Source: Erodium maritimum
Taxonomy: Eukaryota; Streptophyta; Magnoliopsida; Geraniales; Geraniaceae
Direction of reading: 5' to 3'
DNA: 64,000 nucleotides
Assembly: GCA_963921825.1 (NCBI GenBank)
Contig: OY997594.1
Location: 9,677,001 to 9,741,000 of the forward strand
Shown: one piece after another, positions 25,929 to 49,568 of the stretch
Layout of the letters: the number at the start of each line of letters is the position of its first letter
Numbering within the stretch: position 1 is the stretch's first letter
The notes under the pieces: model-generated
Seen by the model: only the letters and a program-made list of their open reading frames with translations
Told to the model about the DNA's origin: nothing
Database searches by the model: none
Position numbers and translations under genes: made by a program

Positions 25929-26099
25929 ATATATATATATATATATATATAGGGCAGCTATCCAGTAAAAACCACCCTTATTGTGCAATCTACGAACCCA
26001 CTGTAGCCGCGCGATCTGCCAGTCTTGACGTCAGCAGAGGGAGCCAGATTGCGCCACGCGTCCAAAGAGCGCGCGCCAGCTCATTTGAACAGAACGTCG

Positions 26100-26285
26100 A
26101 ATCGCGCGAGAAATGAAGTCGATTATATCGTTTGCCGATATATTAAAATTCGCGCCATTAAAATTTCCTTCTTCAACCTTCTGACTTCGCGATTTCTCAG
26201 AAAAAAATTATATCTCTTCCTGCTTGCGATTCGCGATCTCTTCTTCAACCTTCTTCAACCTACTGTGTTTGCGATTCACGATTCC
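26100..26285. repeat. Left subterminal TCGCGA-type motifs
   Basis: The words ATCGCGCGAGAAAT, TTCGCGATTTCT, GATTCGCGATCTC and GCGATTCACGATTC cluster within 340 bp of the left end. The right end has four AAATCTCGCGTG units (49352-49435). Such subterminal repeats are typical transposase-binding candidates; the role is inferred. Confidence 0.5.
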
Positions 26286-26334
26286 AGAGACAGATCAGCG
26301 AAAATTGAACAAAAAGCTCGACCAAACAAACCAT

Positions 26335-26744
26335 GTAAGTTCTGAAATTTGGTATGTAAACCCTAATTGTTGCACAGAAACTGCGACTTGATTTGAGATA
26401 GTGCTTGTAGCATCAACATAGGGATGTTAGAAGCATCTAGAAGCCTCCGAGATATTTTTGGGATGCTTGTAGAATCCCATCGATAAAGGATTTTAGCATT
26501 GTTAGATTGAGAGTCCAATCACTAATAGAGAGTGTGGATTCTGTCCATCCATAAAGGATATTAACACTAGTAGATTTAGTGTTCAAACCACTGATACAGT
26601 GTGTTGGTTGGTAACTAGTATACACACTTGTTGTTATTTGCATATTCACATTGTAACATGCACAACACTAATAGTTTGAGTGCCCAACTGCTAGTGTTCT
26701 ATGTGTCCAATTACTTATACACTGCCTGTTATTTGGTTCTACAG
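26335..26744 (+). other. Probable 5' UTR intron of the transposase gene, motif-bearing
   Basis: GTAAGT at 26335 and TTCTACAG at 26744 frame an intron just upstream of the first ATG of the transposase (26758). It contains repeated CACTAATAG, CACTAGTAG and CACTGATAC motifs and a duplicated sentence with TCCAT..ATAAAGGAT (26475-26580). Confidence 0.55.
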
Positions 26745-26757
26745 TGACGGGAAAAAC

Positions 26758-29739
26758 ATGACTACACCAAATAGTAATACCACACCAACAACCCCTCGTG
26801 TCACACGCCAAACTGCTCAAAAACCACCACGTGTGCCCACACCGACAACACCTCGTGTGACACGCCAAACAGCTCAAAAACCACCGCGTGCGACCACACC
26901 GACAACACCTTTTGTAACACGCCAAACAGCAAAAAAACCACCGCGTGTACCAACACCACGTGTGCCCACACCTGTACAAGTGAACACATGCACAATACCC
27001 CCTGTACCTTATCCAGTAGTAGCTCCAGAGGAGAGAAATGAGCCTGCCAACTCTGATAATACAGTGGTGGACGAAGACATTGAGTGTCCACCAGATGTGA
27101 CAAATATCCCCGAACAACCTCCTACTGAAAACACTGAACATTCAGAACATTCTGCGTTCCGAGTGCCTGTTGTGGAAGCTGCAGTAGAAGCAAATCCAAA
27201 CCAACCAAGTTCAAGTGAAAACATACATTCTGAACATTCTGCAATCCCGGTACCTGCTTCATTCATCCAACTGACAGAGGATGGGAAAAAGGAATACATT
27301 CCAAATTGCCACGAGGACAGGAAGCCGAAAGAAAAAAAGGAGTTCAAGACACTAGCTGCTGCAATTAACTTTTATGAGAGTTATGCAAAAGTAACAGGTT
27401 TCAGCGTTCGGAGAGGGGCAGAAAAAAAGCACAAAGATCAAACCGTGACCCTCAAGTACTTGCTCTGCTCAAAATAAGGGCATAAGTACGAGCCCAAAGA
27501 ACCTAAGGATGACGAGCCCATAGAATAAAACATAAGAAACCGGCTATTGTCAAGAACTGGTTGCAGAGCGAAAATAGCTATTAAATTCAAAGCCACAGAA
27601 AATGGGAACGTGTACTTCATAAAGGAGTTTGTTGAAGCGCACAACCATGAGTTGTTTGTGATGAATGACAGGCAGTACATGAGATCCAACAGGAGGGTGA
27701 CATCACCGATGCAGAACTGGTTACTGAATTGCCAGAAAGCTACAATTGGTCCTGTTCTGTGTCACAAAGTTTTAAGCGAAACGCTTGGAGGTCCGGAAAA
27801 GGTTGGTGCAACTTCGAGGGATTTCATGAACTACCAAAGGGATCTACGGGCTTATGTAATGGATACGGATGTCCAGATGGTACTGGACAGGTTCCATGAG
27901 AAGAAGGAGTCCAGCCCTGAATTCTATTTTGAGTTCAAAACTGACCGCTCCGATAGGTTGACCGCTGTTTTTTGGGCTGATGCTGAAATGTTGAAGGACT
28001 ACAAGCTCTATGGTGACTGTGTAGCTTTTGACTCAACTTATCACACAAACCAGTAAGTAATGTTGAGATAATATTCGTCTGGTGGTTTATATAGAATTGT
28101 GGTTTATATAATTTTTTTTTAAATTTTGCAGGTATGACATGGTATTCTCTCCATTCACTGGAATAAACAGCCACAACAAATCAGTGACCTTTGCGGCAGC
28201 CCTGATATCAAAAGAAGATGTACCATCCTTTGTTTGGATTTTCCAAACATTCCTCAAGGCGATGGGCGGGAAGGAGCCTCTATGCATCATTACTGACCAT
28301 GACCCTGCAATGAAGATTGCAGTGAACGAGGTGATGAAAGAGACAAAACACCGGTTCTGCATGTGGCACATCATGGAGAAAATTCCAAAAAAGGTGAGTA
28401 CAAGTTCAAATTCATTATTGTGCTGATTGATTTTGGACTAAGACTAGTGGTGCAATGTTAAAAGTACAGAGTAACTGGTTGGATGGCTTCTTACTTGTTT
28501 GCCACTCACTAATAATTTAATAATCATACTGCTAGTAGTTTACAAATGCATTGTGCTGATAGTTTAGCATGTTAATTATTGTTTTGGCAAGTTCCCCTTG
28601 CCAATCTGTCTGAAACTAACTTTAAGCAAGAGATTAAGGATGTGGTGTGGTCCAGGACTATGACGATAGATGAATTTGAGAAAAAGTGGCCTGTGATAAT
28701 CAAGAAGTGAAATTTAGAGGACAACAACTGGCTGCAACAACTCTTTGAGATGAGGGAGGACTGGATACCCGCCTACTTCCATGATTTGCCGATGGCGAGG
28801 CTGATGAGGACGACATCCCGTTCTGAGAGCCAAAATAGTACCTTTAGAAAGTTGACCGACAAGTATCTCCCGCTGGTCCATTTCATGTGGAGAGTCGACG
28901 GTGTAGTGAACAACCAAAGGGAGGAAACAAGGTACTTGGCCATGAAGTCTGCCACGTGTCACCCACAGTACAAGCTGAATTCAGAACTGGAGCGCCATGC
29001 TTGGAACCTATACACATTGCCCATTTTCTTCAAGGTGCAAAAGTACATGATGCTGACCGACAAGCTCGAACTCCACCAGATGGGTGACAAGAAGACCAGT
29101 GAAGGAATGTTAAAGTTGTACTTCATCAGAGACGAAAGAAACAGTGAATTCATTGTGGCGAGGATGATGGAGACGAACCACTTTGACTGTTCGTGCAAGA
29201 GATTCCAGGCAAAAGGTTTGTTGTGCATCCATATATTCCTAGCAATGAGAAATGCGAGGATGAAGCTCATCCCGGACAGCATGGTGAATCTGAGATGGTG
29301 TAGGGAGACAGCTAGACAAGACCAAGAAGCAAGGGCAAACATGGATCCTGAAGATACGAACAAACTGATAGAGGACATCAAGAAACGATTTGCTGAGCTG
29401 ATCGAAGTCCCGGATCCTTCCTTTTCTAATCTGCAGAGTCTGTTGCACACACTGAAGAACACAACCATACACAGCAACAACGAAGACTACAGGGCGAAAA
29501 AAATGCAAAAGCAGAAGAAGATGGAGAAAATGACAGGGATTAAAAGGCCCATAGAGGCGACGGTCCAGAATCCGCCGCAGTCAAACAACAAGGGGTCTCG
29601 AAAGAGCAGAAGAAAATAGTCGGATTTTGAAATAGCAGTACAAGCAGCTAGCAAGCCACTGAGGCTGTGCCATGGATGTTTCAAGATGACAAACGAGCAT
29701 GACAAAAGGAACTGTCCAGAGATTAAGGAGAAAGATTGA
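26758..29739 (+). pseudogene. FAR1/MULE transposase, disabled by in-frame stops
   Basis: The predicted protein opens with three 19-residue Pro/Thr repeats (TPTTPRVTRQTAQKPP). A FAR1-type DNA-binding zinc domain follows (FYESYAKVTGFSVRRG, then RTGCRAKI and AHNHEL), then a MULE transposase core with DSTYHTNQYDM, TDHDPAMK and SESQNS as catalytic-region blocks. A SWIM finger (CSCKRFQAKGLLCIH) and a C-terminal CX2C..H..C knuckle (CHGCF..HDKRNC) complete it. Introns are 28053-28131 and about 28394-28591 (the phase at the second is not clean). Stops lie in the coding frame at 27475, 27526, 28708 and 29617, each followed by further homologous sequence in frame. Apart from these the sequence is well preserved, so inactivation looks recent. 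Transposition would now need another copy. Confidence 0.85.
28440..28575. repeat. Motif array in transposase intron 2
   Basis: Four close copies: CACTAATAATTTAAT, TGCTAGTAGTTTAC, TGTGCTGATAGTTTAGC and an upstream CTAGTGGTGCAATG. They lie in the intron, not in the exons. Confidence 0.6.
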
Positions 29740-30600
29740 ACAAGTATTAGCATATGTTTATGATTTTGTGTTAAACCTGCCTTACTTTTGAACACTTGGG
29801 AAATATTAGTATGGTTTGGAACTTTGAATGACTTGATGCTTAAAACAATTGTGTTTTTAGTTATATATGATTTTGAAGTTTCAAAGTGTCAAAGAACCAT
29901 AATGAAGTATTGCTGATGGACTGGTGCAGGAGTACTAATAGATTGGTCGACTTGTGCTAATATATTCATGAACATGTTCATGGGTGCTACCAAATTTATA
30001 GTGCAGAGCACTGCACACCACTAGAAGTTTAGACTGCACACCACTAAAAGTCTATACTGCACAGCACTAGAAGTTCAGAGTGCAGACTACTGGAAGGTTA
30101 TATTTCTTCAGATTCCTTCAGTTTAATATAAAATATGTACATGGTTGCCATGTTTGGGTGAAAAGTTTGAGATAATGATTCCAAATTTAATAAACATATA
30201 AAATAAAGACCTTTTAAGATTATGCATAAATTTCTAACAGTTTCTCTGCAACTAGAATTTTTAGCTTGCACATTACTAACAGTTTAGCATGCACGCCACT
30301 AATTTTTTAACATGCAGAGTGCTGACAGATGGTAATTTGCTTCTCTAGTGAAAAACACAAACAAAACACTGAATAACATATATTACTAGCAGTTTAACAT
30401 GCACACCACTAATTTTTTGACATGCACAATGATGACAGACAGTAATATGATTCAACAAGTCCACACAAGAACAACAAATTTAAAGAAAGCAGATATATAT
30501 ATAAAACAAGTCGTCCAAACAAAAAAGCAGATTATATAAAAAGTCCAACAAAAAACAGGAAATTTAAAGAAAGCATAAGTAGAATGGAAAGGAAGTAACG
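29740..30600. repeat. Non-coding spacer rich in the CACTAATAGTTT motif
   Basis: There is no gene. Units such as GCACACCACTAGAAGTTTA, GCACACCACTAAAAGTCTA and GCACAGCACTAGAAGTTCA occur every 20-25 bp at 30000-30105, and again at 30245-30440 (GCACATTACTAACAGTTTA, GCACGCCACTAATTTTTTA, GCAGAGTGCTGACAGA). The segment 30225-30390 is repeated almost exactly at 31940-32105. Confidence 0.75.
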
Positions 30601-30604
30601 GGAT

Positions 30605-30916
30605 CTAAACGGCCTGCTCTGCTCTGGAGAACTGCTCCAGTACACGACGAATTGCACTCAACTGACGGATGAGCGATACATGTCTCCGCTTTTCTTCCTG
30701 CGACCATTCATTGGTGTTGATGTGAGTCAGGGTCACCAGTTGTTCGTTGACCTCGGCCTGGACACTGAAAATTTTATCTTCGATGTCCTTATACGCCCTC
30801 AGCCTCGCATAGTGCTCCAGCTTTCTTATCCCTGTAACGATCATCTGGGCATCAGTAGGAGCAGCCGTGGATGATTGACTCGCGGTAGGGATTCCTGAAC
30901 CAGATGGAGCAGCCAT
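30605..30916 (-). CDS. Small helical protein of unknown function, 103 aa
   Basis: Not recognised. A single exon starts at 30916, the first ATG after a minus-strand TATA box (TATATAAA at about 31005-31013). The N-terminal 30 residues are Ser/Ala/Pro-rich and duplicate a GIPT.S.SS.AAP phrase whose first copy lies in the upstream leader. The remainder is predicted mostly helical and charged (RKLEHYARLRAYKDIEDKI; RHVSLIRQLSAIRRVLEQF). It is divergent with the gene at 31308, with about 390 bp between the start codons. Like two other small genes in this element, it is a helix, a polar middle and a leucine-rich helix; it may be a distant relative of them. A regulatory or adaptor role would be a guess. 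Confidence 0.55.
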   Translation of the reverse strand: MAAPSGSGIPTASQSSTAAPTDAQMIVTGIRKLEHYARLRAYKDIEDKIFSVQAEVNEQLVTLTHINTNEWSQEEKRRHVSLIRQLSAIRRVLEQFSRAEQAV

Positions 30917-31240
30917 GGATGATAGACTCAGAGTTGGAATTCCTGCAAAAAAAACTGAGTAGAAGTATAAGTAAAATGTGAAAGAAATGGAACACGGTTG
31001 TTCGTTTATATAGAGGATGAAAATGAACCACCACCTTAAATGGGGAGAGGAAACAAACTGTCACCAGCGTTGATATATGTGTAAAAATTTATTAAGGACG
31101 GTTTGATTAGACTGTTGATATGACAGATAGATGTTTGAAAATATAAGAAGAATACAAGCGGTTTCTTAACTATCCACTCAGTTAAGGGAGATGTGGCAAG
31201 TATTAAAACTGCCCACTAACTCCATCACGCGTTACAGTTC

Positions 31241-31250
31241 CCTATAAATA
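31241..31250 (+). promoter_or_regulatory. TATA box of the 86-aa gene
   Basis: CCTATAAATA lies about 60 bp upstream of the ATG at 31308. A second TATA box on the other strand near 31005-31013 serves the divergent 103-aa gene. Confidence 0.65.
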
Positions 31251-31307
31251 CACACCTGACTAATACCCAAACCCAACCACGAAAAGAGTTTTGTCTAGTT
31301 AAAACAA

Positions 31308-31568
31308 ATGGAGTCAGGAAAATCTATCCAAAGTACACTGTCAGAGGAGATCAAGCGTCAGAGGCGCCTCATTGAGCATGAAAGGGCAGTGCTAAACTAC
31401 ACGGAGCTGAGGCTAAAGCTGTTGGAGACCCAACTTGAAGTGACTTTAATGGTAAATGATACATGCAATGTGGATGAAAAGGATATGACACCGGACGAGA
31501 AGGATGCAAACCAGACCCAAATGAAGAAGTTTGCAGAGCTTAATGTAATGCTTGAAGAAATTATTTAG
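31308..31568 (+). CDS. Small coiled-coil-like protein of unknown function, 86 aa
   Basis: Not recognised. A single open frame with a TATA box 60 bp upstream. Residues 10-50 form one long charged helix (EEIKRQRRLIEHERAVLNYT, then LRLKLLETQLEV) with a heptad-like spacing of Leu and Ile. An acidic DEKDMTPDEKD segment and a short C-terminal helix (KKFAELNVMLEEII) follow. It is surrounded by the element's motif-bearing spacers and so belongs to the MULE. The order of helix, acidic turn and short leucine helix recalls the 93-aa product at 41344-41625. Confidence 0.5.
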   Translation: MESGKSIQSTLSEEIKRQRRLIEHERAVLNYTELRLKLLETQLEVTLMVNDTCNVDEKDMTPDEKDANQTQMKKFAELNVMLEEII

Positions 31569-31739
31569 AAGTTGGATTAGGTAATTCCAATCTTGGCTGT
31601 TATTTATTTGTATTCATCCAAAAAAATCATGAACATGGTCATGATTTTTATGCTTTAAATTTAATGAAAAAAGTAATTTCCTCCAGTTGAATCCAAATTG
31701 TGTTCTTCTCTTAATTCTCTACAATTCTATATCCGTGAT

Positions 31740-32110
31740 CACTAAAAGGTTAGTGTACACCCTGCTAAAATATTAGAATACATGTTGTTGATAGTTCATA
31801 CATACAAAGCTTATTTAATATTCATAGATGTATTATAAAATGAATTTGAGACTTGCAAAAAAATGTACATGATTGACATTTTTGGATCAAAAGTTTGAAG
31901 AATTCAAGATAATGAATCTGAATTTAATAAACGAAAATGCATAAATTGCTAACGGTTTCTCTGCAACTAGAATTTTTAGCTTGCACATTACTAACAGTTT
32001 AGCATGCACACCACTAATTTTTTAACATGCAGAGTGCTGACAAATGGTAATTTGCTTCTCTAGTGAAAAACACGAACAAAACACTAGGTAACATATATTA
32101 AGCATCAACC
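31740..32110. repeat. Spacer with motif array, near-copy of 30225-30390
   Basis: The stretch 31940-32105 repeats 30225-30390 with only scattered differences (TTTCTCTGCAACTAGAATTT, GCTTGCACATTACTAACAG). This shows that spacers of the element spread by internal duplication. Confidence 0.75.
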
Positions 32111-32209
32111 AAAATTACACAACGCAGTTGTCCACCTAAAAACAAAACATCTTCAACTATTCAGGTGGACAAGTTCAACAAAAACAACCAGGTTAAAGAG
32201 AAAGCGTAA

Positions 32210-32980
32210 TTAGTTGATGTTACGAACAAGCTTCATTGACTCAATGTCAATTAAACAGTCAATACACACATATCTAAGTTCTCCGGCACCTGCGATATCG
32301 TACAGCCTACGCCTCCAATGGCCAGCATCGTGAGGAGTTTCGCAGATGCTTGATATACTCAACTGTGACCATCTGCCAAAGTGTAGCATGGCTCGAAACT
32401 CACGACGACATTCATGCAACACTGCCCTCTCTGGATCACTTATCAGAAAAAAGATACCGTAGAATATGTCTGCAACAATGTCATCTTTCCCACCTAATTT
32501 GATTAGAGCAATTGCATGGATATATCTTCTTAACATAATAGACCAGTTGTCACACACCTCAAGTAATCTAAGGCCGAGTCTAGGTTTATTCCGATTGAAA
32601 GTATAGTACAGACCTAGAAGGTACCTAGCATTCAAATTACCGGCTTCAGTAGCATTCACAAGCACTGATTTGGTGCGGAAAGTCACTGCCCTGCCTACTT
32701 GTGGTCGGAATTCACAATTTAAGGCCAACAGCACATCATCATCCTCTTTCATTAAGTGATAAAAATTCTTGCAACTGAATGCAGAACACAAAGACAAATA
32801 GTGTATTAAAATAAAAGAGTAAAAAACAAAAAGGAAATAAGAATTTTAAATGTTGAGGGATAGAGTTTTAGAACCAGTTTACCACATAGAAAGGTGGACA
32901 AAAGGAACATCGTTATCATCCAGAGTCCTTTTGAATATTTCAGACTTCAACTCATCAGGCAGAGCACTAAGGTAATCCAT
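32210..32980 (-). CDS. F-box/Sel1-like protein A, 220 aa
   Basis: Two exons, 32980-32883 and 32774-32210, spliced GTAAAC..TTCAG. Exon 1 gives an N-terminal F-box (MDYLSALPDELKSEIFKRTL). Exon 2 gives CCKNFYHLMKEDDDVLLALNC, a Sel1-like repeat piece (ATEAGNLNARYLLGLYYTFN) and a C-terminal RYVCIDCLIDIESMKL. The order resembles plant F-box proteins of the At2g35280 type, which would act as substrate receptors of SCF ubiquitin ligases; the substrate is unknown. All coding positions are open. A minus-strand TATATATA box lies near 33110-33120. First in transcription-distal order of five paralogues, all on the minus strand within the giant MULE. Confidence 0.8.
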
Positions 32981-33369
32981 TAAAAAACCTTAATGAAGTT
33001 GAAAAGATTGTTGATCTTCAGGATTTCTTCGAGTAACTGAGAGTAATGGAGGAGGAGCTTGAGATAGAAAGAAACAGAGATAGGGAGAAATATGTTCGAA
33101 CAAGACTTGCCTATATATAGTAGAAGTAAAACGATGGGATTATTGAAGAAGGAAATGATTTATTAAATGCAAAACCACCCTTCCATCTTCCATATTTAAT
33201 ATGATGGAGACACGTGTAGTCAAATCAAGTCAATCAGATTGTCACTCTCTTAACCGCCCTTACACCTTATTTATTATCTCAATTAATACGGAAATGATAA
33301 TATATGTGCAGAGTCATTTAAATAAAATACGTGTAAAGCCTCGTTTAATTAAATCAGATAAATTTATTT

Positions 33370-33545
33370 ACATATTGTTGATAATTTACCACGCACAGTA
33401 CTAATAATTTAATATTCAAACTGCTGACAGTTTCCAATTCATATGAGAAAAAATAGTTTTAATATTGGAAGAACTGGGAACCGATAATTGGTTCATTTAC
33501 ACACCGCTAATATATTAGAATACATGCCGCTAATATACCAGTTGT
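33370..33545. repeat. Motif cluster upstream of F-box gene A
   Basis: CACAGTACTAATAATTTA, CTGCTGACAGTTTCC, CACACCGCTAATATATTAG and CATGCCGCTAATATACC lie between genes A and B. Confidence 0.6.
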
Positions 33546-33621
33546 CCAACTAAAAAAAACATCTTCAACTATTTAGAGAACACAAGTTCAACCAAAATAA
33601 TCAGGTTACAGATAAGTGTAA

Positions 33622-34405
33622 TTAGTTGAGATTATAAGTAAGCTTGAATGACTCAATGTCAACTAAACAGTCAAAGCAGCTATATCTAAGTTCGCCAGGG
33701 CCTAAGATATCTTCGATTCTACGGCTCCAATGGCCATCATCGTTAGGAGTTTCACAGATGCTTGATGTCCTCAAGTGTGACCATCTACCGGGTTGAAGCA
33801 TGGCGCGAAACTGGCGGCGACATTCATGCAGCATTGACCTGTCGGTGTACAACATCTGCATAAAGATACCGCCGAAGATATCTCCAACGCGTTCATCTTC
33901 CCCACCTACTTTGATTAGTGCTATGGCACGGACATATCGTCTTAACATTGTATACCAGTTGTCACACCTCTCAAGTAATTCAAGTCCGTGTCTAGGTCTA
34001 TTCCGATTGAAAGTATAGTACAGACCAAGAAGGTGCCTAGCATTTAAATTACCGGCTTCACTAGCCTCCTCAAGCACTAATTTGGTCTGCAATGTCACTT
34101 CCTTCACTACTTGTGGTCGGAAATCACAATTTAGGGCCAACAGAACATCATCATCCTCTTTCATAAACCTATAGAAATCCTTGCAACTGAATGCAGCACA
34201 CAAAATATAAAATCATACACTAAAAAAGAAAATAATTAAATAAGAATTTTACATGTTTAAGATAGGGTTTCAGAACCAGTTACCACATCGAGAGGTGGAC
34301 AAAAGGAACATCACCATCACTTAGAGTCCTTTTGAATATGTGAGACTTCAACGAATCAGGCAAAGCACTAAGGTAATCGAAACCAGGGGCAGCATTTTGA
34401 TCCAT
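33622..34405 (-). CDS. F-box/Sel1-like protein B, 228 aa
   Basis: Exons 34405-34284 and 34186-33622, with the intron at the same codon as in gene A. The F-box reads FDYLSALPDSLKSHIFKRTL. Exon 2 is very close to gene A (CCKDFYRFMKEDDDVLLALNC, ASEAGNLNARHLLGLYYTFN, RYSCFDCLVDIESFKL). The longer N-terminus (MDQNAAPG) is shared with genes C and D, so gene A probably lost these residues. Frames are open. A TATATAAT-like box lies near 34620-34632 on the minus strand. A and B form the closest pair in the cluster. Confidence 0.8.
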
Positions 34406-34925: not shown

Positions 34926-34985
34926 AGTTTAACAAAAACATAGAGATTCAGTCTATTACATAAAATGAAATAAAAAACAAAAGAC

Positions 34986-35730
34986 CTAAATAGTGTTATG
35001 AGATAGTTTATATGTTTCGATATCAATTAAACATTCGACATAGTTGTAATAAAACTCTCTAACACGTCTGATTGCTGCGACTTTCTTATTCCAGTGAAAG
35101 GGATTTCCGGTCCATTCACACAAATGTGTGTGTTTTAGATATCTCCAGTTCCTGTTCTGCAGCATTTGGCGAAACTGGCGACGACAAGTAAATAGGACGT
35201 GCCTGTCATTCGGATCATTCTCCTCAAAGAAACTATACAGAGCAGCAAGAGATTCATCTTCATCTTCATTTACATACCTCCTCATCCAAGTTGACACATT
35301 GTCACACGTGTTCAGAATTGGAAGACCTCGCTCAGGCGTATCAGAATTGAAGATGAGGTACAGAGCCAGGAGATATGCTGCCCTGGAGTTCCCAAAATCA
35401 GTGGCCCTCTGAAGAATTTTGGAGCCGTCATGGTCCACAGCTTTCACCGTCCTCGGGTGGAACTTACAAGGTAGCTCCATCAAAATATCCTTCTCAGTAG
35501 ACATAAGTCTATAAAATAACTTGCAACTGAAATTAAAAACATGTAAAAAGAATAAATAGTAATAATAATTAAAAACAAAATTGTAAGTCACGAGTTTCAA
35601 ATTTCTACCAGGATGAGAGTATAATCAAATTTCTGTCTGAATCATCAAAACACCTCTTAAGAATATTAACCAACACATCGTCTGGCAACGACGTGATATA
35701 ATCAACACCAGGAAGCACTCTGTGATCCAT
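34986..35730 (-). CDS. F-box/Sel1-like protein C, 220 aa
   Basis: Exons 35730-35609 and 35526-34986. The F-box is GVDYITSLPDDVLVNILKRCF. Exon 2 starts CCKLFYRLMSTEKDILMELPC and includes the Sel1-like ATDFGNSRAAYLLALYLIFN and a C-terminal YYNYVECLIDIETYKL. It is about as close to gene D as A is to B, so the cluster has two subgroups. Compared with D there is a short internal loss around residue 130 (RRYVNEDEDES). The frame is open throughout. Confidence 0.8.
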
Positions 35731-35744
35731 TATAATACCTGAAA

Positions 35745-36690: not shown

Positions 36691-36691
36691 A

Positions 36692-36862: not shown

Positions 36863-37668
36863 TTATAGAAAATTAAAAAAAAACAGACGAACTACTAAAG
36901 GAGTTTTGTGCTTCAGTTTATATGTTTCAATATCAATTAAACATTCTATGCAGTTGTAACAATACTCTTTAAGATATTTAATTGCTGCGACTTTTTTGTT
37001 CCAGTGAACGGGATATCTAGTCGATTTGCACAACTTTGTGTATTTTAGATGTCTCCAATTCCTATCCTGCAACATTCGGCGGAAAAGACGACGACACTCA
37101 AATACCTCACGCCTGTCATAATAATCAATTCCCGCAAAGAAACGATATAGACCAAGAACCGCTTCAACATCATCAGGATCATGTACTTTCAATTTGGCCA
37201 TCCCATACACATACCTCGTCAACAAAGTTGACTCATTGTCACACATCTCAAGAAATTGAAGTCCTCGGTCAGGAGTATCAGAATTGAAGATGAGGTACAG
37301 AGCCAGAAGATATGTTGCATTAAGGTTCCCAAAATCAGCGGCCCTTTCGAGAATTTTGGAGCCGTCATGGTCGACAGTTTTCACCGTCCTCGGGTGGAAA
37401 GTACAAGGTAGCTCCATCAGTATATCCTTGTTAGTAGACATAAGTCTATAAAATAATTTGCAACTGAATTCGAAAAAAAAAGTAAAAAAATTAATTATTA
37501 ATAATGAAAGACAAAAATTCTAAGGCACAGATGTGAAATTGATTACCAGGATGAGAGTATGACCAAATTGCAGTCTAAATCATCTAAACTCCTCTTCAGA
37601 ATATCAACCAATACATTTTCTGGCAATGAGGTGATATAATCAACACCAGGAACCCCTCTCTGATCCAT
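36863..37668 (-). CDS. F-box/Sel1-like protein D, 240 aa
   Basis: Exons 37668-37547 and 37463-36863. The F-box is GVDYITSLPENVLVDILKRSL. Exon 2 reads CCKLFYRLMSTNKDILMELPC, AADFGNLNATYLLALYLIFN and YNCIECLIDIETYKL. The C-terminus runs on for about 17 residues beyond the family end (VVRLFFFNFL), probably because the ancestral stop was lost. Otherwise it is intact. It is a tandem duplicate of gene C with its upstream region. Confidence 0.8.
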
Positions 37669-39238: not shown

Positions 39239-40107
39239 CTAATATATTCTGTAACGCAGCTTATAGGTCTCTATATCTACGATACAATAAGGACAACTGA
39301 CGTTCAAATCCCCGCCCTCATGAATAGTATCGTAAACCTTAGGATGCCAATGCCCGATGTCTTCTTCTGAGCAGCACTCGGTGACAACCAAATTTCGGCG
39401 CCTGTTCCCTCTAAGCATCCTTTGGAAATCATAGTTGCAGACTCGAAGTCCACGCCTTTCCTCATCACCTTCCACCATCTCCATGATTAACCCGACCAGA
39501 ATCTGAACACCATAATCAACCGTGCCTACATTGATTTGGGTCATTCCCATAATGTAACGCCGCCTCCAGGTTGTGGTGCAATCAAACTCGGACAGGAGCC
39601 TCAGTCCATAGTCGGGGTTGACACTGCTATTGAATGTGTAGTAGAAGGCAAGAAAAAACCTTGCCCTGTAATTGCGTGCATTAGATGCGTTGCGAAGAAC
39701 GCGACAGCTACGCCCTGTAACAGCTCGAACCACTTCAGGCCTAAATTGGCAGCGCAGACGGAAAAAAACTCTCTCATCACGATGCAGAAGTTGGTAAAAC
39801 CTCCTGCAACTATTTAAACCACGAATTGCAGAAATAAAAAACCAAAATACGGGATTTGTGGAATCAATCTCGACTAGAATGAACAATAAATATAAACAGA
39901 CACTGATTTGGGAATCAAAATAAAAATAAACAGATATTGATTTGGGATTGATTTACCAGAAGGAAAAGGGGAAGAACATAGTATCGCTTACCAGACAGAA
40001 AGAGGAAACAAGGGACCATCGCTTTCTTCCAGAAGCCTGTCAAAAATTTGCAGGAGCACATTGTTGGGCAGTTGATTGATGATATCCCTCTGATCGTCGT
40101 TTTCCAT
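39239..40107 (-). CDS. F-box/Sel1-like protein E, 228 aa
   Basis: Exons 40107-39992 and 39809-39239 (donor GTAAGC, acceptor TTTAAATAG). The F-box is IINQLPNNVLLQIFDRLL. Exon 2 begins CRRFYQLLHRDERVFFRLRC; the Sel1-like piece is ASNARNYRARFFLAFYYTFN; the C-terminus is NVSCPYCIVDIETYKLRYRI. It is the most diverged of the five and closest to the generic plant family, so it may be the founding copy. TATATATAAC in reverse lies near 40168-40180. The frame is open. Confidence 0.8.
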
Positions 40108-40559: not shown

Positions 40560-41130
40560 ATACTTAAAAACACACACCACTGATATACCAGTCTACACAC
40601 CACTAACATTTATGACTGTTTTGGTTATGATGAACTGATTAGAAAGGCAACCACCATGACCCTGACGCAATATCAGAAAATAGATAGGTTTAAAAAAACG
40701 AGGAAGATTAAGCTATTAAGATAGAGATGCACTGATCAGAAGTTGATCACTTTTGGAAATGAGGTATTGATATTTGTGGCCAAGGGATTTTGATGCAGTG
40801 ATTTGGTGGTTGAGAATTTAATGCATAAGAGTAGACTGGATCATAAAAAGAAACTACCCACTAAACACATAATTTATTATTTGATTATCAGATACAAAAC
40901 ACATTTCATGCAACGTCTATGCACTAAAAAATTATGCTGCACACCACTAATTATTTAAAATGCACACCACTGATATACCAGTCTACACACCACTAACATT
41001 TATGACTGTTTTGGGTATGATGAAGTGATTAGAAAGGCAACCACCAAGACACTGACGCAATATCATAAAATAGATAGGTTTAAAAAAACGAGGAAGATTA
41101 AGCTATTAAGACAGAGATGCACTGATCTGA
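40560..41130. repeat. Tandem segmental repeat, two units about 410 bp apart
   Basis: 40563-40755 (ACCACTGATATACCAGTCTA..GACGCAATATCA..GCACTGATC) recurs at 40974-41140 with few changes. Each unit carries motif copies (CACACCACTAAT, CACACCACTGATATACC). No gene inside; the 62-codon frame at 41025 is non-coding shadow. Confidence 0.75.
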
Positions 41131-41268
41131 AGTTGATCATTTTTGAAGATTTAGTGGGTGAGAATTTAATGCATAAGAGTGGAGGTGGTGTTGAAAAGAA
41201 ACTACCCACTTAGTCCATAACATGGTTTCGGAATAACAATAATGCCCTTGGACCAGGGCTATAAATAC

Positions 41269-41277
41269 CCCCCACTT
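41269..41277 (+). promoter_or_regulatory. TATA box of the 93-aa gene
   Basis: CTATAAATA lies 67-75 bp upstream of the ATG at 41344. It excludes the earlier in-frame ATG at 41242 as a start. Confidence 0.65.
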
Positions 41278-41343
41278 AGCAATCACTTGAACACACCTTT
41301 CAAACCTCATCTGCACAGAAATATCTTCAGTCCCACAAAAAAA

Positions 41344-41625
41344 ATGGCCTCCAACGGAAGAAGTGATAATAATGCTTGGTTTCGAATGAACATCGAAGAT
41401 GAGGAAAGACGTATAGATACCATTCACCAACTATGGAAGTTGAAGTTCACAGTGATCCAGTATCAGATGTTGATGCTGGATGCACAGGTTGTGAAGTTGT
41501 TGGGTGAGATGGAACGAGACGACAATCATACTTGGAAGGCAGAACAAACAGCTGACAAGGAACGCATGCTGCAGGCACTAAGGGGATATCAACAATTCCT
41601 CGGAAATATAAATGTAGATCCCTAA
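41344..41625 (+). CDS. Small helical protein of unknown function, 93 aa
   Basis: Not recognised. The start at 41344 is chosen because the TATA box at 41269 lies downstream of the earlier in-frame ATG, and it has the strong context AAAATGG. The helix IEDEERRIDTIHQLWKLKF, then QYQMLMLDAQVVKLLGEM, an acidic turn and ADKERMLQALRGYQQFL resemble in layout the products at 31308-31568 and 30605-30916. It lies between F-box gene E and the protease gene, on the opposite strand to both. Confidence 0.55.
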   Translation: MASNGRSDNNAWFRMNIEDEERRIDTIHQLWKLKFTVIQYQMLMLDAQVVKLLGEMERDDNHTWKAEQTADKERMLQALRGYQQFLGNINVDP

Positions 41626-41814
41626 GCCATAGGGAGATGAAGGATTGTTGGTACCTTCTTTTTCATGCATGTCGTCTTTTGTCTGTTTTGTTTGGTGTTT
41701 CACACACCATGTTTTCCCTATGAATCTATAAAATATTAAATTGTGACTTATTATCTACTGGTTTTGAACAGATACAAAAATATAATCATGCACAAGTCAG
41801 TATACTGATAATCT

Positions 41815-41890
41815 ATGTTGCACAGCACTATAAAATTATGATGTACACCACAAATTGCTTAATGTGCAGACTGCTAATATACTATATTAC
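41815..41890. repeat. Motif cluster
   Basis: TGCACAGCACTATAAAATT, GTACACCACAAATTGC and GTGCAGACTGCTAATATACTA stand in the spacer between the 93-aa gene and the protease gene. Confidence 0.6.
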
Positions 41891-42036
41891 ATTCCACTGA
41901 AACTCGAGACATAAGCTCCAAAATACTAAGAATCATATCTGTATTATAATAACCATGTTTGTTTTGAACAGAAAAAAAATATCCATAGTTATGATCTCAC
42001 CACAATAAAGAACAATATTCATACTGTTCCAAACAA

Positions 42037-45000
42037 TCAAGAACCTATTTTTGGCAATTTGGTACATTTAAATGGAAAAAAATTTTGGCGAAAATTGAAT
42101 GGGTTTCCTGTTCCTGAATAGTAGCGCTTCACTTCTTCATGCACATCTTTCCATTTACCGTTCAGCTCAAACGTCAACAATTTTGCCATGAACCTCATCC
42201 TCAGCTTCTTTTTCTGTGTCCTTTGATACTGCATTGCAAAAATTTAAAATGTGTGAATGCTTTCAGAAGTGCAGCAGAAAAAATATGTGACTCTGATGCA
42301 CACTAAAATGCCAAAATCAGCCTTTTAGTGCAGACCACTAAAAGGCTCTGCTGCACACCACTAAAAGTTCAGATTGGAGACCACTAAAAGGCTCTGCTGA
42401 ACACCACTAGAAGCTCAAAGAACATAGCACTAAAAGGGTATGTTATACACCACTAGAAGTTCAGAGAGTAGGAAACTAGAAGGTTATATTGCAGACCACT
42501 AAAAGAGAGGTTAAGAGAAGAAAAACATATTGTAATCCGATGTGCGATTTTGGTTTTATTGGCCCATCGTCCTCGACCGAGATAGTTTTCTGCATGATAC
42601 ATGGCAAAAACCCCACAATCCTTGCAGTTCAAAGCATTCTGCCAATGAAGATGACGACGTCTGATTGGTAGACCACCGATTTTTAGTCCAATCTTCTTAT
42701 TGGTCTTCATAACATGTGCTGAAATGCCATCTCTCTGTGATATATACAAATTTTGAAACATTATTTACAAGTAAATATGTTCAGACAGAATAAAATATAC
42801 AAATATATAACACTCAAGAACAAGAAAAAGAAGAATATATTAATCTCACCAAGTCATGAAAACAATTTTGACAACGATCCTTATCGTCAGTATCAGGGTC
42901 ATAATTGTCAAGAATCTCGATGATACTATTATTTATATCAATTACCATGACCATGTAATGGCTCTTCCTGTATACAAATATCATAATCTGCAACAAAAAT
43001 GATTTCCCAAAACACAAAAAATTCACCAAAGTAATTTGACTTAAAAGCAAATAAATAATTAGAATGACGAAACAGAAAATTACCATGTCATAATAATGCA
43101 AATTCATGTTAAAATTTCGAAGTTCTTCCTGTACAATACTTCCCAAAGCATCAGTGTTTCCTGACTGCTCGTAGGCAATCTACATATATGTAAATACAAG
43201 AAGATTATTATTCAAAAAAGATAAAGTAAAATGATGAACAAAAATAAAAATTGAATGACTTCAAAAAGGATACCAAACTTCAACTTACAGATATATTGGT
43301 TGATAAGAACACCTGTAATGGACCCAGATGGTTCACCTTGTAGTATTCCAAGTAGTTGAGATAATCAGCCCAAGCATCAATCACAGAACTGTAAACTTCC
43401 ATGTCATCTCTGAAAGTCAAAATGTCGTCTCTTCGCAATACATTGCATGCATTTTCATACACATGATCCCTGTCACATCATAAGAATGAAATTTGATAAA
43501 CGACTAAAAATTTCACTGTAGACAGGTAAAACCTTATATGCAGACCACTAAAAGTTACTGCTGCAGAACACTAAAATCTTATACGTAGAGCACTAAAACG
43601 TTATAATGCAGAGAAGAAACTATTTTATGCATGAATTTTAGATAAACTGAATGGTAATAACAACAACTTACTTCTTATCAGTTTCGGTGGGGTTCAAAGC
43701 CCAATCTGTCAACAGAGTCTCCCAAATGGGCTGCTGCTTAATGCTAATGAATTCGGTATGCCTGTTCCCATAAGGTACTATGTCCTTATCAAACAAATAA
43801 AGATCGGGACCTGTAGCGCAATCTGGCGATGGGATGGCCTGAAGTGGAGGAATATTCAATGCGCCTTTTCTTCTCCCTTTGCGTTTACGAGGAGGTGAAA
43901 CAACTTCTGTTTCATCAGGAGGAGTTTGTTGTTCATTCTTTTGTAGGTAAGCGTTGAAGATATCGTCTGTATAACCAGAATGATGTGATGGTTCTTCATC
44001 AACGCTTTCCTTGCCTACTGGTTTGTCCTCATTGTTTATGTGTGAAGCTGAAGCAGATGTGTTACTCCCAGACAATTTATGTAGAGGAACATAAAGGACC
44101 ATAGCCATGCACGGCTCAGATATCTCCTCAAGTTCTTCACATGCATCCTTCCCTATTGATGCCACAGAAGAGAAGAGAGCTTCTGGATCATCAAAATCCT
44201 CTACATCAGAGTCACTAAGCAGTATGTGTGGAAGTTTCGGGATGTCTGGAACCGAATGTGAAGAACTACCTTTCTGATTAGAAACCTCTATCTTTAGTTT
44301 TTGTTCTTCACTATTACCAGACACCAATCCACCTACCTCTTTGCCAATATGCAGAGATGGGTCGGTACAGGTCCCACCATCTTCTTTGGATTGTATTGGG
44401 GATAAAAGCCCATGTTCAGGAATTAAATCTAGAGAAGGGTGATCTGCTTCAGTGGTTTCCTCCTCAATAATGACTGTATTCTTCTCTTCAGTGATTTCTT
44501 TCTCAACACAAATAACTGATGATGCCATTACATCAATCATCATTGCATCAATTAGACAATGAAGACCATTTTTATCTATGGTTTTCTGACTGTCAATGCC
44601 GGTAACAGTAATGCCTGTTTCTTTCCCTTCACATGCAGTCTGCTCATCTGGTACATCAGCAGGACTTTGTTTCAATGATTCCTGTGTCTCAGAATCCAGT
44701 ACAACAATATGAGATCCGCCCTTCAAATTACTGCTTTTATCCGGATCAGTTTTTGGAATGCTATGTTCCCCAGCATCAAGAGTATCTGTTTCTTCTTTGT
44801 GCTCCACATCAACAACAACATCTTTCCCTTCACATGCACTCTGTTCCCCTGGGACATCATCAGAATCCAGTACAACAATATGAGATCCATATTTCTGACT
44901 GTCAATGCCGGGAACAGTAATGCCTGTTTCTTTCCCTTCACACGTAGTCTGTTCAACTGGTACATCAGCAGGACTTTGTTTCAATGATTCCTGTGTCTCA

Positions 45001-48000
45001 GAATCTAGTACAACAATATGAGATCCGCCCTTCAAATTACTGCTTTTATCCGGATCAGTTTTTGGAATGCTATGTTCCCCGGCATCAAGAGTGTCTGTTT
45101 CTTCTTTATGCCCCGCATCAGCAACATCATCTTTCCCTTCACATGCACTCTGATCACCTGGGACATTAACAGCAACAAAATCTTTCCCTTCACATGCACT
45201 CTGTTCACATGGGACATCAACAGCAACAACATCTTTCCCTTCACATGCAGTCTGTTCCCCTGGGACATCATCAGCAACAGTTTCTTTCCCATCACATGCA
45301 CTCTGTTCACTTGGGACATCAACAGCAACAACATCTTTACTTTCACATGCACTCTGTTCCCCTGGGACATCATCAGCAACAGTTTCTTTCCCATCACATG
45401 CACTCTGTTCACCTGGGACATCAACAGCAACAACATCTTTACTTTCACATGCAGTCTGTTCCCCTGGGACATCATCAGCAACAGTTTCTTTCCCATCACA
45501 TGCACTCTGTTCACCTGGGACATCAACAGCAACAACATCTTTACTTTCACATGCACTCTGTTCCCCTGGGACATCATCAGCAACAGTTTCTTTCCCATCA
45601 CATGCACTCTGTTCACCTGGGACATCAACAGCAACAACATCTTTACTTTCACATGCACTCTGTTCCCCTGGGACATCATCAGCAACAGTTTCTTTCCCAT
45701 CACATGCACTCTGTTCACCTGGGACATCAACAGCAACAACATCTTTACCTTCACATGCACTCTGTTCCCCTGGGACATCATCAGCAACAGTTTCTTTCCC
45801 ATCACATGCACTCTGTTCACATTGGACATCACATTGGACATCATCACCGGGAACAAGAGTGTCTGTTTCTTCTTTATGCTCCACATCACTGGGAACAACT
45901 TTTTTCTCCTCACATGAACTCAGTTCAAGTGGTACATCAGGTTGTGTATCTGAATTAATATTAATATAATCAATCACAGGGTACATGTACAAATCGTCAC
46001 TCTCTTCAGCTCCAACGTATGCTTCAGCTTGTACCTCTGAATCAGGTGCTTCTACTTCTACTTCTTCTTCGTCATCACTTACATAAGCACACTTGTCCAA
46101 ATCACAGTAGCTTCCGCCTGAATTTTCCCTTTCACTATCGTCTGAATCTTCCAACTGATCCTTATCAGTTTCGTTTTCTTCAGAAATATTTTTCTTGGTC
46201 TCCTTTTCTTCAATGTCAGGCAATAGATTGAAACTAGGTAGAGGACCTACATCAGGTGATCTAGTCCTTAGTGCATGAAAATAAGCACTGGATTTCTTTT
46301 TCAGTTGAGCTTCTTCGATCTTTGCTATAGCTTTCAGAACATCCTCCTGCTCCCAAAAGTCACCATCCACAAGCTGTTGAACGCGCATCGGTGGTGCAGC
46401 TGCCACAGGACTTGGAACTCCAACAATGTCCTGAAATCCTTGAGACAGACGCCTAACTTGTTGGACATCGGGTAATGGATGTTGACTGTTTTCATAACAG
46501 TCAACCAAAACTTCAAAACTCTCAGCGAAAACTTTTGCCGCTGTGACAAAGTTTTGGTATGAACGCTGAAATGTTATCAATAAAACTAAATCAAAAAACA
46601 ACATTTAGGAATGATAACTGAAAACAAATAAAAAATATAAAAGTCAGAAAACATACACGATAGCTGCTCCCTGAACCACGAGTAGAACCAGAAGGTCCTG
46701 AATGAGACTGAGGATCATGAGTACTCTGGTGAGTACCAGATTGTTCATCGACCTTACGAGGAGATACAAGAGGTGGCTGAGGAAGCAACTGAGCCGGCAA
46801 CTGAGGATCAGGTTGATCAACGTAACACATTCCAAACTTGTCACCTAACAACAACTCTTTATCCTCCCTCTCCTGAACATCGTCTGTAGTCCAACCAATT
46901 AACGAAGGTTTATATTTTGGCTTCTTCAGATTGGCTATGGTAGTACGATCCAAATAGAACAGCTGCAAATAATCTAATAGTCAAGTAACGAACTGATTTT
47001 AACAATATAAGACCACATTATTAGAAACATGGTACTGCATACAGACCACTAAAAAATTATGCTGCAGACCACTGACAACTTCACTGCAGACAACTAAAAA
47101 ATTATGCTGGAGACAACTAAAAAATCATGTTGCAGACCACTAAAATAAGTCCTACATACCACTAAAAATTAATGATGCAGACCACTAAAAAAATGCTTCA
47201 GACAACTAAAAAATTATGCTGGAGACAACTAAAAAATCATGTTACAGACCACTAAAATAAGTACTACAGACCACTAAAAATTAATGATGCAGACCACTAA
47301 CATATTACAGTAATTCTTTCAGTGCAAATTCTTAGAGGCAAAAAACCCAATTACTAAAATACTATGCATTAAAAAACAAAAATGGGCAAATAACCTTACT
47401 TACCACCAAAAATGTCATTGGACCTATGTAGAATTTTTTCCGGTCCCAACTCTTAGATGTCTCCACCAACCTGTCAATCAGAAACTGACACCAATTGTAG
47501 TCTTTGATCTTCTCGACATCGTGAACATCATCCAATATGTACTGGTTGACAAGCCCGGAGGCACTACCAAAATCTATCGTAAGTGTGGTAAATAGCACCA
47601 AAAATGATCGTTTGAAATGGTCGCCTCCATCCTTCAAAGACAACAAGTGATGATACAGATCCTCATGCATTATATCATAGACAGATGTAGTCTGTTTCTT
47701 CTTACCCTTCACATCAACCAACTTAGTTAACTCTCTCCAATCCAAGCGAGCTTTTGAATAAGATTTACTCTTATTCAAGTAAACCTTATTCCTGCCTCGA
47801 GGAATGCCAAGAACCTGGTGTACAACAGAATCGTCGATATGCAACCGATCCCCAAAGCCAAGAACCAGGGACATAATGCCAGGCTTGAAGCTCTCGGCAA
47901 GGTACAGGCACAGCCGGGCGGGAAGAAACTGCACTCTAAGATGTAATATGGACCCAAAACCTATCTCTTCAATGTCTTTTCTTTGGGCTGCACTTAGACG

Positions 48001-49138
48001 AACGATCAAATCGTATAACCTACACGGTGAAGTGCGTAACAAAATCTTAGGTAGCCCGGTTTTCCTTTTCCTAATCAACTGCCACTCCTCCCTCTGCTGT
48101 GAAGTTTTATAAACTCTTCTCTTCACTTCACCAGCGATCTTCGGTTTCTTTGCCTCCTGATCTGAAGACACAACATCTGGCTCTTTACGCTTACCAAGGA
48201 CATCAATCCTTTGTTTCCGCTTCCGAAGCCTCTCATAAACTTGCAGATTCACATACTTTTTCCTTAAAATGCCAATAGGCATGTTATCTTCATCACTTAG
48301 CCCGTGTAGCGAACTTGTTGCAGAGTCAGGAACCACTAACTCTGCAGCTAGAGAGGCTGCAGCAGTTTCTTCTACAAAAAGACACAATCAAACCACAACT
48401 TAAGAAATGTCTAGCAATCTACTTCCAGAGGATTTGATATTCAAAGTACTGCTGAAATTTTACAACACATAGTACTAATAATTTAATATTCAAACTGCTA
48501 AAAGTTTCCCATTCATACCTAAAAATATTTTGACATTCATAACATGTTCGACAAAAACATACCGAGATTCAGTCTATTACTGGAAAATGGAAAAAAAACA
48601 AAAGTCCTACTTAAGGAGTTTTGTACTTCAGTTTATAAATAGGGTCAAGTGAATTATGCCTTCCAGAATGTTTCTCAGCATCATTAAGAGGTTACCTATG
48701 ATTTTAGAAGAAAGGGGCATGGTAGATTGTAGGCCATAACATTTAAATTCTAGGGCACATCTTCTCTTTTGTAGAGTCAGATTTTGAGGAAATGAAGTAG
48801 TACATGACTCAGAAAATCAGTTTAGGGTTCAGTGAATGAGATTGGAGGGTGAGGTTAGGGGTCAACTCTTAACTCTCAATTGCTTGACTATCATAGTTTT
48901 TGTTCACACAAATCAACAATGCACAGAATATTGTTCCTCGGTTACTCAGCTATGATGCTGCAAATGATAATAGTTAAGCTTTGTGATTGTTCATAGATTT
49001 TCAGAAGTTCATGAATTTGAGAAGCCAAATGATGCACAAGCTCTGAACCTTATGAACTCATATGTAGTGGCTTTGTTAGAAGAGTTTACCTTGTTTGCTC
49101 GAGGGGCTGTGGAAATCGGAGAACATTTTTGAAGTCAT
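42037..49138 (-). CDS. Giant ULP1-like (C48) cysteine protease with PMD-like N-terminus
   Basis: Likely a SUMO-type isopeptidase of the transposon-borne ULP1-like class. Nine exons are traced, with canonical sites and matching phase for the first eight starts: 49138-49090, 48371-47404, 46962-46657, 46565-43672, 43469-43289, 43179-43084, 42987-42850, 42734-about 42500, 42228-42037. The product is about 1,650-1,700 aa. The N-terminal third holds a plant-mobile-domain-like block (FGSILHLRVQFLPARLCLYL, LHIDDSVVHQVLGIPRG, LFYLDR). Exon 4 is an acidic, repeat-filled linker of some 960 aa. The C-terminus has the protease site: HYMVMVIDINN and ILDNYD (His, Asp), then QNALNCKDCGVFAMYHAENY (Gln, Cys). 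All expected catalytic residues are present. The donor of exon 8 is not resolved. The gene starts about 430 bp inside the right end of the MULE and faces inward. Confidence 0.8.
42295..42510. repeat. Motif array in the last intron of the protease gene
   Basis: Eight or more units at 20-26 bp spacing: GCAGACCACTAAAAGGCTCTG, GCACACCACTAAAAGTTCAG, GAACACCACTAGAAGCTCA, TACACCACTAGAAGTTCAG and others. The array stops at the flanking exons. Confidence 0.8.
43530..43620. repeat. Motif array in intron 4 of the protease gene
   Basis: Four units: GCAGACCACTAAAAGTTACTG, GCAGAACACTAAAATCTTA, GTAGAGCACTAAAACGTTA and GCAGAGAAGAAAC. Confidence 0.75.
44186..45030 (-). other. SUMO-interacting-motif-like sites and an 85-residue duplication in exon 4
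   Basis: Three copies of GSHIVVLDS followed by Glu or Asp (around 44690-44717, 44860-44890, 44993-45028) and one PHILLSDSDVEDFDD (44186-44232) fit the SIM pattern: three or four Ile/Val/Leu followed by acidic residues and Ser. Two of the three IVVLDS copies lie in a duplicated block (HKEETDTLDAGEHSIPKTDP..CEGKETGIT). SIM function is inferred from pattern only. Confidence 0.6.
45125..45835 (-). repeat. 51-bp / 102-bp coding tandem repeat in exon 4
   Basis: The protein alternates VPGEQSACDGKETVADD and VPGEQSACESKDVVAVD, 17 residues each, for about thirteen half-units. Because the unit is a multiple of three and the repeats are homogenised, the two antisense frames are also open here; those are shadows. 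The array is acidic and has one Cys per unit. Confidence 0.9.
47035..47310. repeat. Motif array in intron 2 of the protease gene
   Basis: About eleven units such as CAGACCACTAAAAAATTATG, CAGACAACTAAAAAATTATG and CAGACCACTAAAATAAG. Part of it is a higher-order duplication (47085-47180 versus 47205-47290). It is the densest array in the element. Confidence 0.85.
48380..48640. repeat. Duplicate of 36672-36920
   Basis: About 250 bp repeated with roughly one difference per 15 bp, including the ATG context of the MSGxLLP gene, two motif units (ACATAGTACTAATAATTTA, CTGCTAAAAGTTTCC) and the start of the F-box D 3' region. It lies in intron 1 of the protease gene. Confidence 0.8.
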
Positions 49139-49167
49139 TTTGAAGACCTACAGTTCTGCTTGAGTGC

Positions 49168-49231
49168 GACTTCGTCTTCGTCTTCGTCTTCTTCTGCTTC
49201 TGCTTCTACTTCGTCTTCTTCTTCTTCTTAA
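49168..49231. repeat. CTTCGT / CTTCTG microsatellite in the 5' UTR of the protease gene
   Basis: A trinucleotide-period tract just upstream of the ATG at 49138 on the minus strand. Confidence 0.8.
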
Positions 49232-49351
49232 TACATTTCGAAGAAAAAATTAACAATATGAAATAAGAAATCGGACACATGCATATTGAATGGGGGCAAA
49301 ATAAAAAATATAAAATCAAAATCAAAAAGGGGATTAATTCGATTAGTTTAA

Positions 49352-49435
49352 AATCTCGCGTGTTTCTAACTAAAATTTCGCGTGTTTCTATCTAAAATCT
49401 CGCGTGTTTCTATCTAAAATCTCGCGACAAATCAA
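49352..49435. repeat. Right subterminal repeats, about 23 bp x 4
   Basis: Four units of TAAAATCTCGCGTGTTTCT type lie 135-215 bp from the right end. They mirror TCGCGA-type words near the left end. Confidence 0.75.
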
Positions 49436-49568
49436 AAAGGGCCACAAATTACAATTCTGCCACCGCGTCTCTCAGCGCAATCTGAGCCATCGATCCGAAC
49501 AGATCCTGCGGCCCACAAGAGTTCGTAGTTTGCACAATAAGGGGTGGTTTGTACCTGATAGCTATCCT

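Follow-up and report, generated by a model that had tools for sequence, protein, structure and literature searches.

TA-targeting Mutator-like elements (MULEs), ULP1-carrying MULEs, and VANC systems are already known; statements on published systems here and below refer to the passages cited. MuTAnT elements have terminal inverted repeats (TIRs) with a mean length of 47 bp and exhibit variable loss of distal TIR nucleotides (PMC4486113). Kaonashi elements (KIUs) contain VANC genes that encode a ULP1 domain and induce hypomethylation of related elements (PMC13317346). The targets of VANC21 are arrays of same-orientation motifs in noncoding tandem repeats, and VANC proteins contain variable regions of tandem peptide motifs (PMC5735166). 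According to a review, none of the Pack-MULEs in one 2004 study was longer than the full-length element of 7 kb, and capture of full-length genes is exceptionally rare (PMC6431247). Here, we describe a 23.6-kb element in a 64,000-nucleotide stretch of the Erodium maritimum genome, hereafter called the window (G000:C7:9677001-9741000; host genome of 763 Mb in 40 contigs); all coordinates without a prefix are positions in this window. Between its ends, the element contains a FAR1/MULE transposase gene, a likely ULP1-like gene, five F-box genes (Fb1–Fb5), and three small genes (sm1–sm3). Comparison of its copies indicates that it is very probably a giant multi-gene Mutator-like transposon that behaves as a mobile unit and whose genes are, as groups, under selection.

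The ends of the element were delineated in two ways. A search for inverted repeats revealed the pairs 25929–25977/49542–49590 (88%) and 25968–26018/49500–49550 (75%). Local alignment of both ends yielded 53 identities over 65 columns, beginning on the left at 25952 (GGGCAG) and stopping on the right at 49567, which refines the matching inward-facing ends that the original prediction had placed at 25951 and 49568. The resulting TIRs of about 65 bp occupy 25952–26018 (plus strand) and 49500–49567 (minus strand). A (TA)n microsatellite (25927–25951) and a (TA)n-rich target (49568–49590) lie directly outside the left and right ends, respectively; because (TA)n is present on both sides, a target site duplication of 8–11 bp would be masked. 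Across copies, (TA)n flanks all nine left and all seven right ends that were read, as in MULEs that target TA microsatellites. The combination of a MULE-type DDE transposase and TIRs, together with the pairing of ends and colinear copies described below, indicates that 25952–49567 is one MULE. Rfam gave no match in 25900–49620, and no tRNA was found in the whole window.

Genome-wide searches revealed that the two ends recur together and enclose the same genes. For each end, a 131-bp query was used and the best 40 candidates were scored (of 1117 on the left and 1006 on the right), all 40 of which showed 84–100% identity in both searches. A right-end partner on the same strand was found for 31 of the 40 scored left ends, which is beyond chance; the spacing is 15.1–94.7 kb overall and 23–60 kb in 24 of the 31 paired elements, and nine left and nine right scored ends have no partner. 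The small gene sm1 lies inside 31 of 31 paired elements, always in the expected orientation (63 of 67 matches entered), sm2 inside 27 (64 of 150 matches entered), and sm3 inside 30 (141 matches, with the best 150 of 543 candidates scored). The N-terminal exon of the ULP1-like gene is present in 29 (141 of 152 matches entered, best 150 of 674 candidates scored), and F-box matches are present in all 31 (best 150 of 422 candidates scored). Inside the paired spans, sm2, sm3, and the ULP1-like gene likewise have the orientation expected from the element. Of these 150 F-box matches, 101 fall within paired elements, every one in the orientation of the element, and 78 of the 101 are free of stops. Of the remaining 49, 41 have either an end without a partner or an entered sm position no more than 60 kb away, and two more are near a paired element.

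Eight further copies, fetched whole or in part, are colinear with the window and 95.4–98.2% identical to it over the mapped parts. A 31.0-kb copy covers every tabulated gene piece, and a 23.2-kb copy covers all of them except the second F-box gene, of which 71% is covered (the middle ULP1 exon lies outside the table in both cases). Other copies contain internal deletions or insertions, including a 15.1-kb copy that lacks the region from about 38.5 to 46.9 kb. The original prediction proposed that the element takes the F-box cluster and small genes along when it moves and that the same gene set should be sought between such ends at non-syntenic sites. Within this genome, the set indeed recurs between the same ends at unrelated sites (F-box and sm1 in 31 of 31 each). 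Mobility of the multi-gene element as a block is thus well supported by the copies compared.

Selection on the genes was estimated from unique minor alleles counted over nine copies (omega, with kappa taken from noncoding sites and one-sided p values). Omega is 0.64 for the pooled F-box genes (118 synonymous [S] and 240 nonsynonymous [N] alleles; p 8.5e-5), 0.43 for the pooled small genes (S 34, N 47; p 2.1e-4), 0.56 for the transposase (S 100, N 185; p 4.3e-6), and 0.54 for the conserved parts of the ULP1-like gene (S 32, N 55; p 0.0052). Six noncoding control frames gave values of 0.93–1.16. These group values indicate that the genes are under purifying selection and that constraint on the cargo is similar in strength to that on the transposase. 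Open reading frames (ORFs) of at least 45 amino acids outside the gene models have a median omega of 0.90 and a 10–90% range of 0.46–1.53 (n=17, three of which are genuine exons or genes, namely transposase exon B, sm3, and a ULP1 exon). Because of this range, the argument is carried by the group values rather than by single small genes.

The transposase gene, predicted originally as a FAR1-type region, consists of three exons on the plus strand. Exon A (26758–28053) contains the FAR1 domain, which was detected on two exon pieces with E values of 5.9e-4 and 6.4e-6, both under the Pfam curated cut-off. Exon B (28139–28423) encodes the MULE (DDE) domain PF10551 (E 5.8e-22), and exon C (28588–29736) encodes a SWIM zinc finger that scores above the Pfam cut-off. 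Exons A and C each contain two premature stops; other copies vary, and some lack these stops. With four premature stops, the window copy is not autonomous as read, and the element may be moved in trans. Outside this genome, the C-terminal exon has 24 relatives at 23–46% identity, 21 of which are named (Bidens, Helianthus, Tagetes, and Tanacetum).

The ULP1-like gene occupies 42456–48387 on the minus strand, with approximate exon junctions. It comprises a conserved N-terminal exon (47362–48387), middle exons with an in-frame tandem array of 51-bp (17-amino-acid) units (45119–45831), and C-terminal exons with an H/D/C pattern (42814–43179 and 42456–42761). In a comparison with solved structures, the C-terminus matched a nucleolar protein at E 1.4 and SENP2 (1tgz) at E 1.5; the H, D, and C residues align with those of SENP2, a match that is not significant alone. 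The 51-bp array aligns to other copies in fragments, as though the number of units differed between them. The presence of a ULP1-like gene in the element is likely, and to this extent the original comparison with Kaonashi-type MULEs holds; it does not extend to the TIRs or to the (TA)n setting.

The element also contains dense tandem repeats of a short motif. Four arrays, all on the plus strand, lie at 30010–30100 (23-bp units of the TGCASACCACTAAWAG type), 42329–42505 (23 bp), 43527–43612 (22–23 bp), and 47042–47307 (23 bp, between exons of the ULP1-like gene). The consensus pattern matches noncoding DNA of the element 22 times on the plus strand and once on the minus strand; 300 dinucleotide shuffles gave 1.3 matches on average and 7 at most. 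No match was found on the plus strand of coding DNA, the strand that was scanned, and two were found in 39.7 kb of flanking DNA, scanned on both strands. The same strand bias is observed in eight of eight other copies (9:2 in the weakest). Thus, the element contains dense same-strand tandem repeats of a motif in noncoding regions, as do VANC targets.

The window also contains three miniature inverted-repeat transposable elements (MITEs) of about 330–360 bp; two adjoin the element on its left side (approximately 25209–25536 and 25563–25926), and the third lies at about 60722–61054. Their ends are similar to those of the giant element, with a TIR core in common, and (TA)n runs surround each of them; their 22-bp repeats are related to the giant element's 23-bp unit. 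Because the TIR core, the (TA)n setting, and the related repeats are in common, the giant element's transposase may move these MITEs. The similarity of their 22-bp repeat (GCACAGTGCTAATAGTTT) to the 23-bp arrays also raises a serious alternative for the arrays, to which we give somewhat less than even credence: they may be transposase-binding sites or MITE remnants rather than targets of anti-silencing. The arrangement of the matches argues against this alternative, in that 20 of the 22 are over 2 kb away from either end of the element, within introns or between genes and on a single strand, as for VANC targets (PMC5735166). Elsewhere in the window, minisatellites with units of 38 to 93 bp form dense arrays at 57781–58919 and 63128–63961.

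The five F-box genes named in the original prediction were all recovered as two-exon models on the minus strand that are open in the window copy: Fb1 (32210–32980), Fb2 (33622–34405), Fb3 (34986–35730), Fb4 (36863–37668), and Fb5 (39239–40107). The F-box domain exceeds the curated cut-off in two of the five, Fb3 (F-box, 22.1 versus 20.5 bits) and Fb5 (F-box-like, 29.6 versus 24.3 bits; F-box, 22.9 versus 20.5 bits), and falls below it in Fb1, Fb2, and Fb4. Fb1 and Fb2 are 72% identical and Fb3 and Fb4 69% identical, with dN/dS of about 0.5, and the remaining pairs are 35–43% identical. These pair identities suggest that the set grew by tandem duplication. No homologue of Fb2 outside this genome was found at E ≤ 0.001 among 164 candidates, and its sole match among solved structures is clusterin (E 0.82). 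No host source gene for the F-box cargo was identified among the best 150 of 422 F-box candidates. Six matches in this set have no unpaired end, entered sm position, or paired element closer than 60 kb (G000:C4:26029673, C2:60525504, C2:58088549, C1:87197944, C9:26203338, and C1:106988334); at 36–52% identity, they are candidates for host relatives or dead elements. A literature search, judged chiefly from titles and the beginnings of abstracts, found no MULE with F-box genes; one study reportedly deals with the capture of a Tc1/Mariner domain by F-box genes (PMC12062965).

Three of the four small genes originally predicted are supported. The sm1 gene (30605–30916, minus strand) encodes a 103-amino-acid protein and sm2 (41344–41625, plus strand) a 93-amino-acid protein, both predicted to form two-helix hairpins (mean predicted local distance difference test scores of 80 and 82, respectively, from six-sequence alignments). 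The sm3 gene (31308–31568, plus strand) encodes an 86-amino-acid protein and is open in eight of eight mapped copies. We considered whether sm1 and sm2 are sequence homologues; blastp revealed no significant match, and their common ground is the predicted two-helix shape. A Foldseek comparison of the sm1 model with the PDB gave no match at E ≤ 0.001, and because two-helix hairpins match many unrelated proteins, no inference is drawn from this comparison. A search for sm2 homologues outside this genome yielded no candidate, and none of the solved structures matched sm2 at E ≤ 1. The database searched contains some Asteraceae, and the negative homologue searches for sm2 and the F-box gene are weak. 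The fourth small gene was sought near 38.5–39.0 kb, where ORFs are intact in three to five of five covered copies; their ratio of nonsynonymous to synonymous polymorphism (pN/pS) of 0.47–0.90 falls within the range of noncoding ORFs, and the gene is therefore unsupported.

Further analysis revealed a second MULE lineage in the same genome, with which the giant element has sm2, sm3, and the ULP1-like gene in common. About 9 kb past the right edge of the window lies a compact element (L038:4995 to L039:181; G000:C7:9750198-9755384). It contains an sm2-like gene with 66% amino acid identity, a gene resembling sm3 (tblastn E 1e-6), 22-bp repeats with a motif of their own, and a different FAR1/MULE transposase with 40–55% amino acid identity over three stretches; the position of a second-lineage transposase between sm2 and sm3 was read in L038 only. 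An open frame nearby (L039:7247-7999) is a putative Copia-type gag. Genome-wide, the best 150 of 759 sm2 candidates were scored and show 58–100% identity. Among 87 low-identity sm3 matches are 35 same-strand sm2–sm3 pairs with sm3 at most 12 kb downstream, and the spacing is 4.63–4.72 kb in 19 of the 35; the wrong order was found once and the wrong strand never. Of 79 low-identity ULP1 matches, 40 have sm2, sm3, or both on the opposite strand at most 45 kb upstream, four show another arrangement, and all three genes occur together in 16. None of the 150 listed F-box matches lies within 45 kb of these 40 ULP1 loci; for this reason, a multi-gene MULE appears to have existed first and the F-box cluster to have been added to it. 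Between the lineages, sm2 has a dN of 0.23, a dS of 0.93, and a dN/dS of 0.25, whereas the transposase exons have a dS of 2.1 or are saturated, a difference suggesting a later transfer of the sm2 gene between lineages.

Several observations weigh against the view that the element is a mobile unit with constrained genes. Long paired spans include extra, unread sequence. The ULP1-like gene has no Pfam match to the C48 peptidases, leaving the assignment to rest on the catalytic pattern; its N-terminal exon and 978-amino-acid middle frame have no Pfam match to DUF1985 or DUF287 at E ≤ 0.1, and the rest of the gene is without constraint (omega 0.96; S 35, N 105). The selection tests assume that alleles are independent and pool live with dead copies. 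Single genes are uneven, with omega values of 1.01 for Fb2, 0.81 for Fb4, and 1.63 for transposase exon B (S 4, N 22). The value for sm1 alone is 0.42; because noncoding ORFs reach 0.47, omega by itself does not prove any one small gene. Finally, the window model of Fb4 contains stops or frameshifts in all seven other copies that cover it, and 23 of the 101 F-box matches inside paired elements carry a stop.

The weak constraint in Fb2 and Fb4, the disruption of Fb4 in other copies, the stops in some F-box matches, and the second lineage without a listed F-box match within 45 kb would all be expected if the unit were mobile and its F-box and small genes were passive passengers of one successful master lineage. 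We regard this as unlikely, given that the pooled F-box omega is near that of the transposase while noncoding controls are near 1, and given the low dN/dS of sm2 between lineages. The block might instead derive from a host F-box cluster that contains a MULE and was spread by recombination, as a segmental duplication or amplicon, rather than by transposition. Gene clusters also spread by duplication, but the copies end at the TIRs, (TA)n borders the nine left and seven right ends read, and the nine left flanks have only short (63–135 bp) or MITE matches in common, the latter in one pair over about 410 bp of a MITE stretch; this explanation is very improbable. Even less credible is that host genes were caught between two unrelated MITEs, an idea suggested by the similar ends and (TA)n flanks of the three MITEs in the window and by the position of two of them next to the left end, since the ends are not those of separate small elements: they pair in 31 of 40 cases and enclose the same genes in the same orientation.

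For the preferred reading of a mobile, multi-gene MULE, we propose the following model. A transposase from another copy would cut at the TIRs and insert the element into (TA)n. The ULP1-like protein, like VANC and Kaonashi proteins, would bind the one-strand 23-bp arrays and remove silent chromatin. The F-box proteins would function as SCF adaptors, targeting for degradation a host protein involved in silencing or in the SUMO pathway, and the small helical proteins would be partners of the transposase or of the ULP1 complex. The anti-silencing role of the F-box proteins is proposed by analogy with polerovirus P0, which reportedly contains an F-box-like motif and acts on AGO1. That anti-silencing by the ULP1-like protein and its motifs is combined with degradation by the F-box proteins is a tentative suggestion. 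It is likewise conceivable, if still doubtful, that this lineage has assembled counter-defences resembling those of viruses on a MULE that already had several genes: a ULP1-type protease that coevolving 23-bp arrays on one strand would guide, element-owned F-box proteins, expanded in tandem, that would redirect the ubiquitin machinery of the host against silencing, and a hitherto unrecognized family of small helical accessory proteins common to MULE lineages.

If the reading of the element is correct, a plant transposon keeps several whole genes, F-box genes included, working by selection. This would be unusual for MULEs and would break the usual picture of a MULE as a transposase plus gene scraps. 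Whether transposons exploit host ubiquitin and SUMO systems against silencing, as some plant viruses do, would become testable. The small proteins would offer a new way to study MULE accessory genes, and many natural copies are available in the genome for a comparative test.

Among described systems, MuTAnT/AutoMuTAnT of Medicago resembles the giant element in its insertion into TA microsatellites, its related short non-autonomous copies, its TIR length class, and its variable loss of distal TIR nucleotides; AutoMuTAnT, however, is 4.9 kb long with one transposase gene, compared with 23.6 kb and nine further genes here (PMC4486113). The SaTars of guayule and rice form non-nested, microsatellite-joined arrays of MULE type that recall the two left MITEs and the giant element, but they are small and non-autonomous, and their autonomous relative measures 5.3 kb (PMC5907723). 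Kaonashi and VANDAL elements combine a transposase with a ULP1-domain gene in one MULE; in the passages cited, they are non-TIR MULEs with three genes and F-box genes are unmentioned, whereas the giant element has TIRs of about 65 bp (PMC13317346). Because some VANDAL-clade elements do have TIRs (PMC6446971), TIRs alone do not exclude the giant element from this clade. MULE and CACTA families of grapevine carry a ULP1-like region in either orientation to the transposase, and the passages cited on them likewise leave F-box genes unmentioned (PMC2528002).

The parallel with VANC and VANDAL21 extends to short same-orientation motifs in noncoding tandem repeats (PMC5735166, PMC10398659), and the tandem peptide motifs of VANC proteins have a counterpart in the 17-amino-acid array of the ULP1-like gene; the motif itself is distinct, and DUF1985 was not found in the ULP1-like gene of the giant element. 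Like Pack-MULEs, the giant element is a MULE carrying extra gene sequence (PMC6431247). Pack-MULEs are defined by captured host fragments and a transposase supplied in trans, whereas this element contains whole open genes and a transposase gene of its own, and here the whole genes recur from copy to copy and are constrained as groups.

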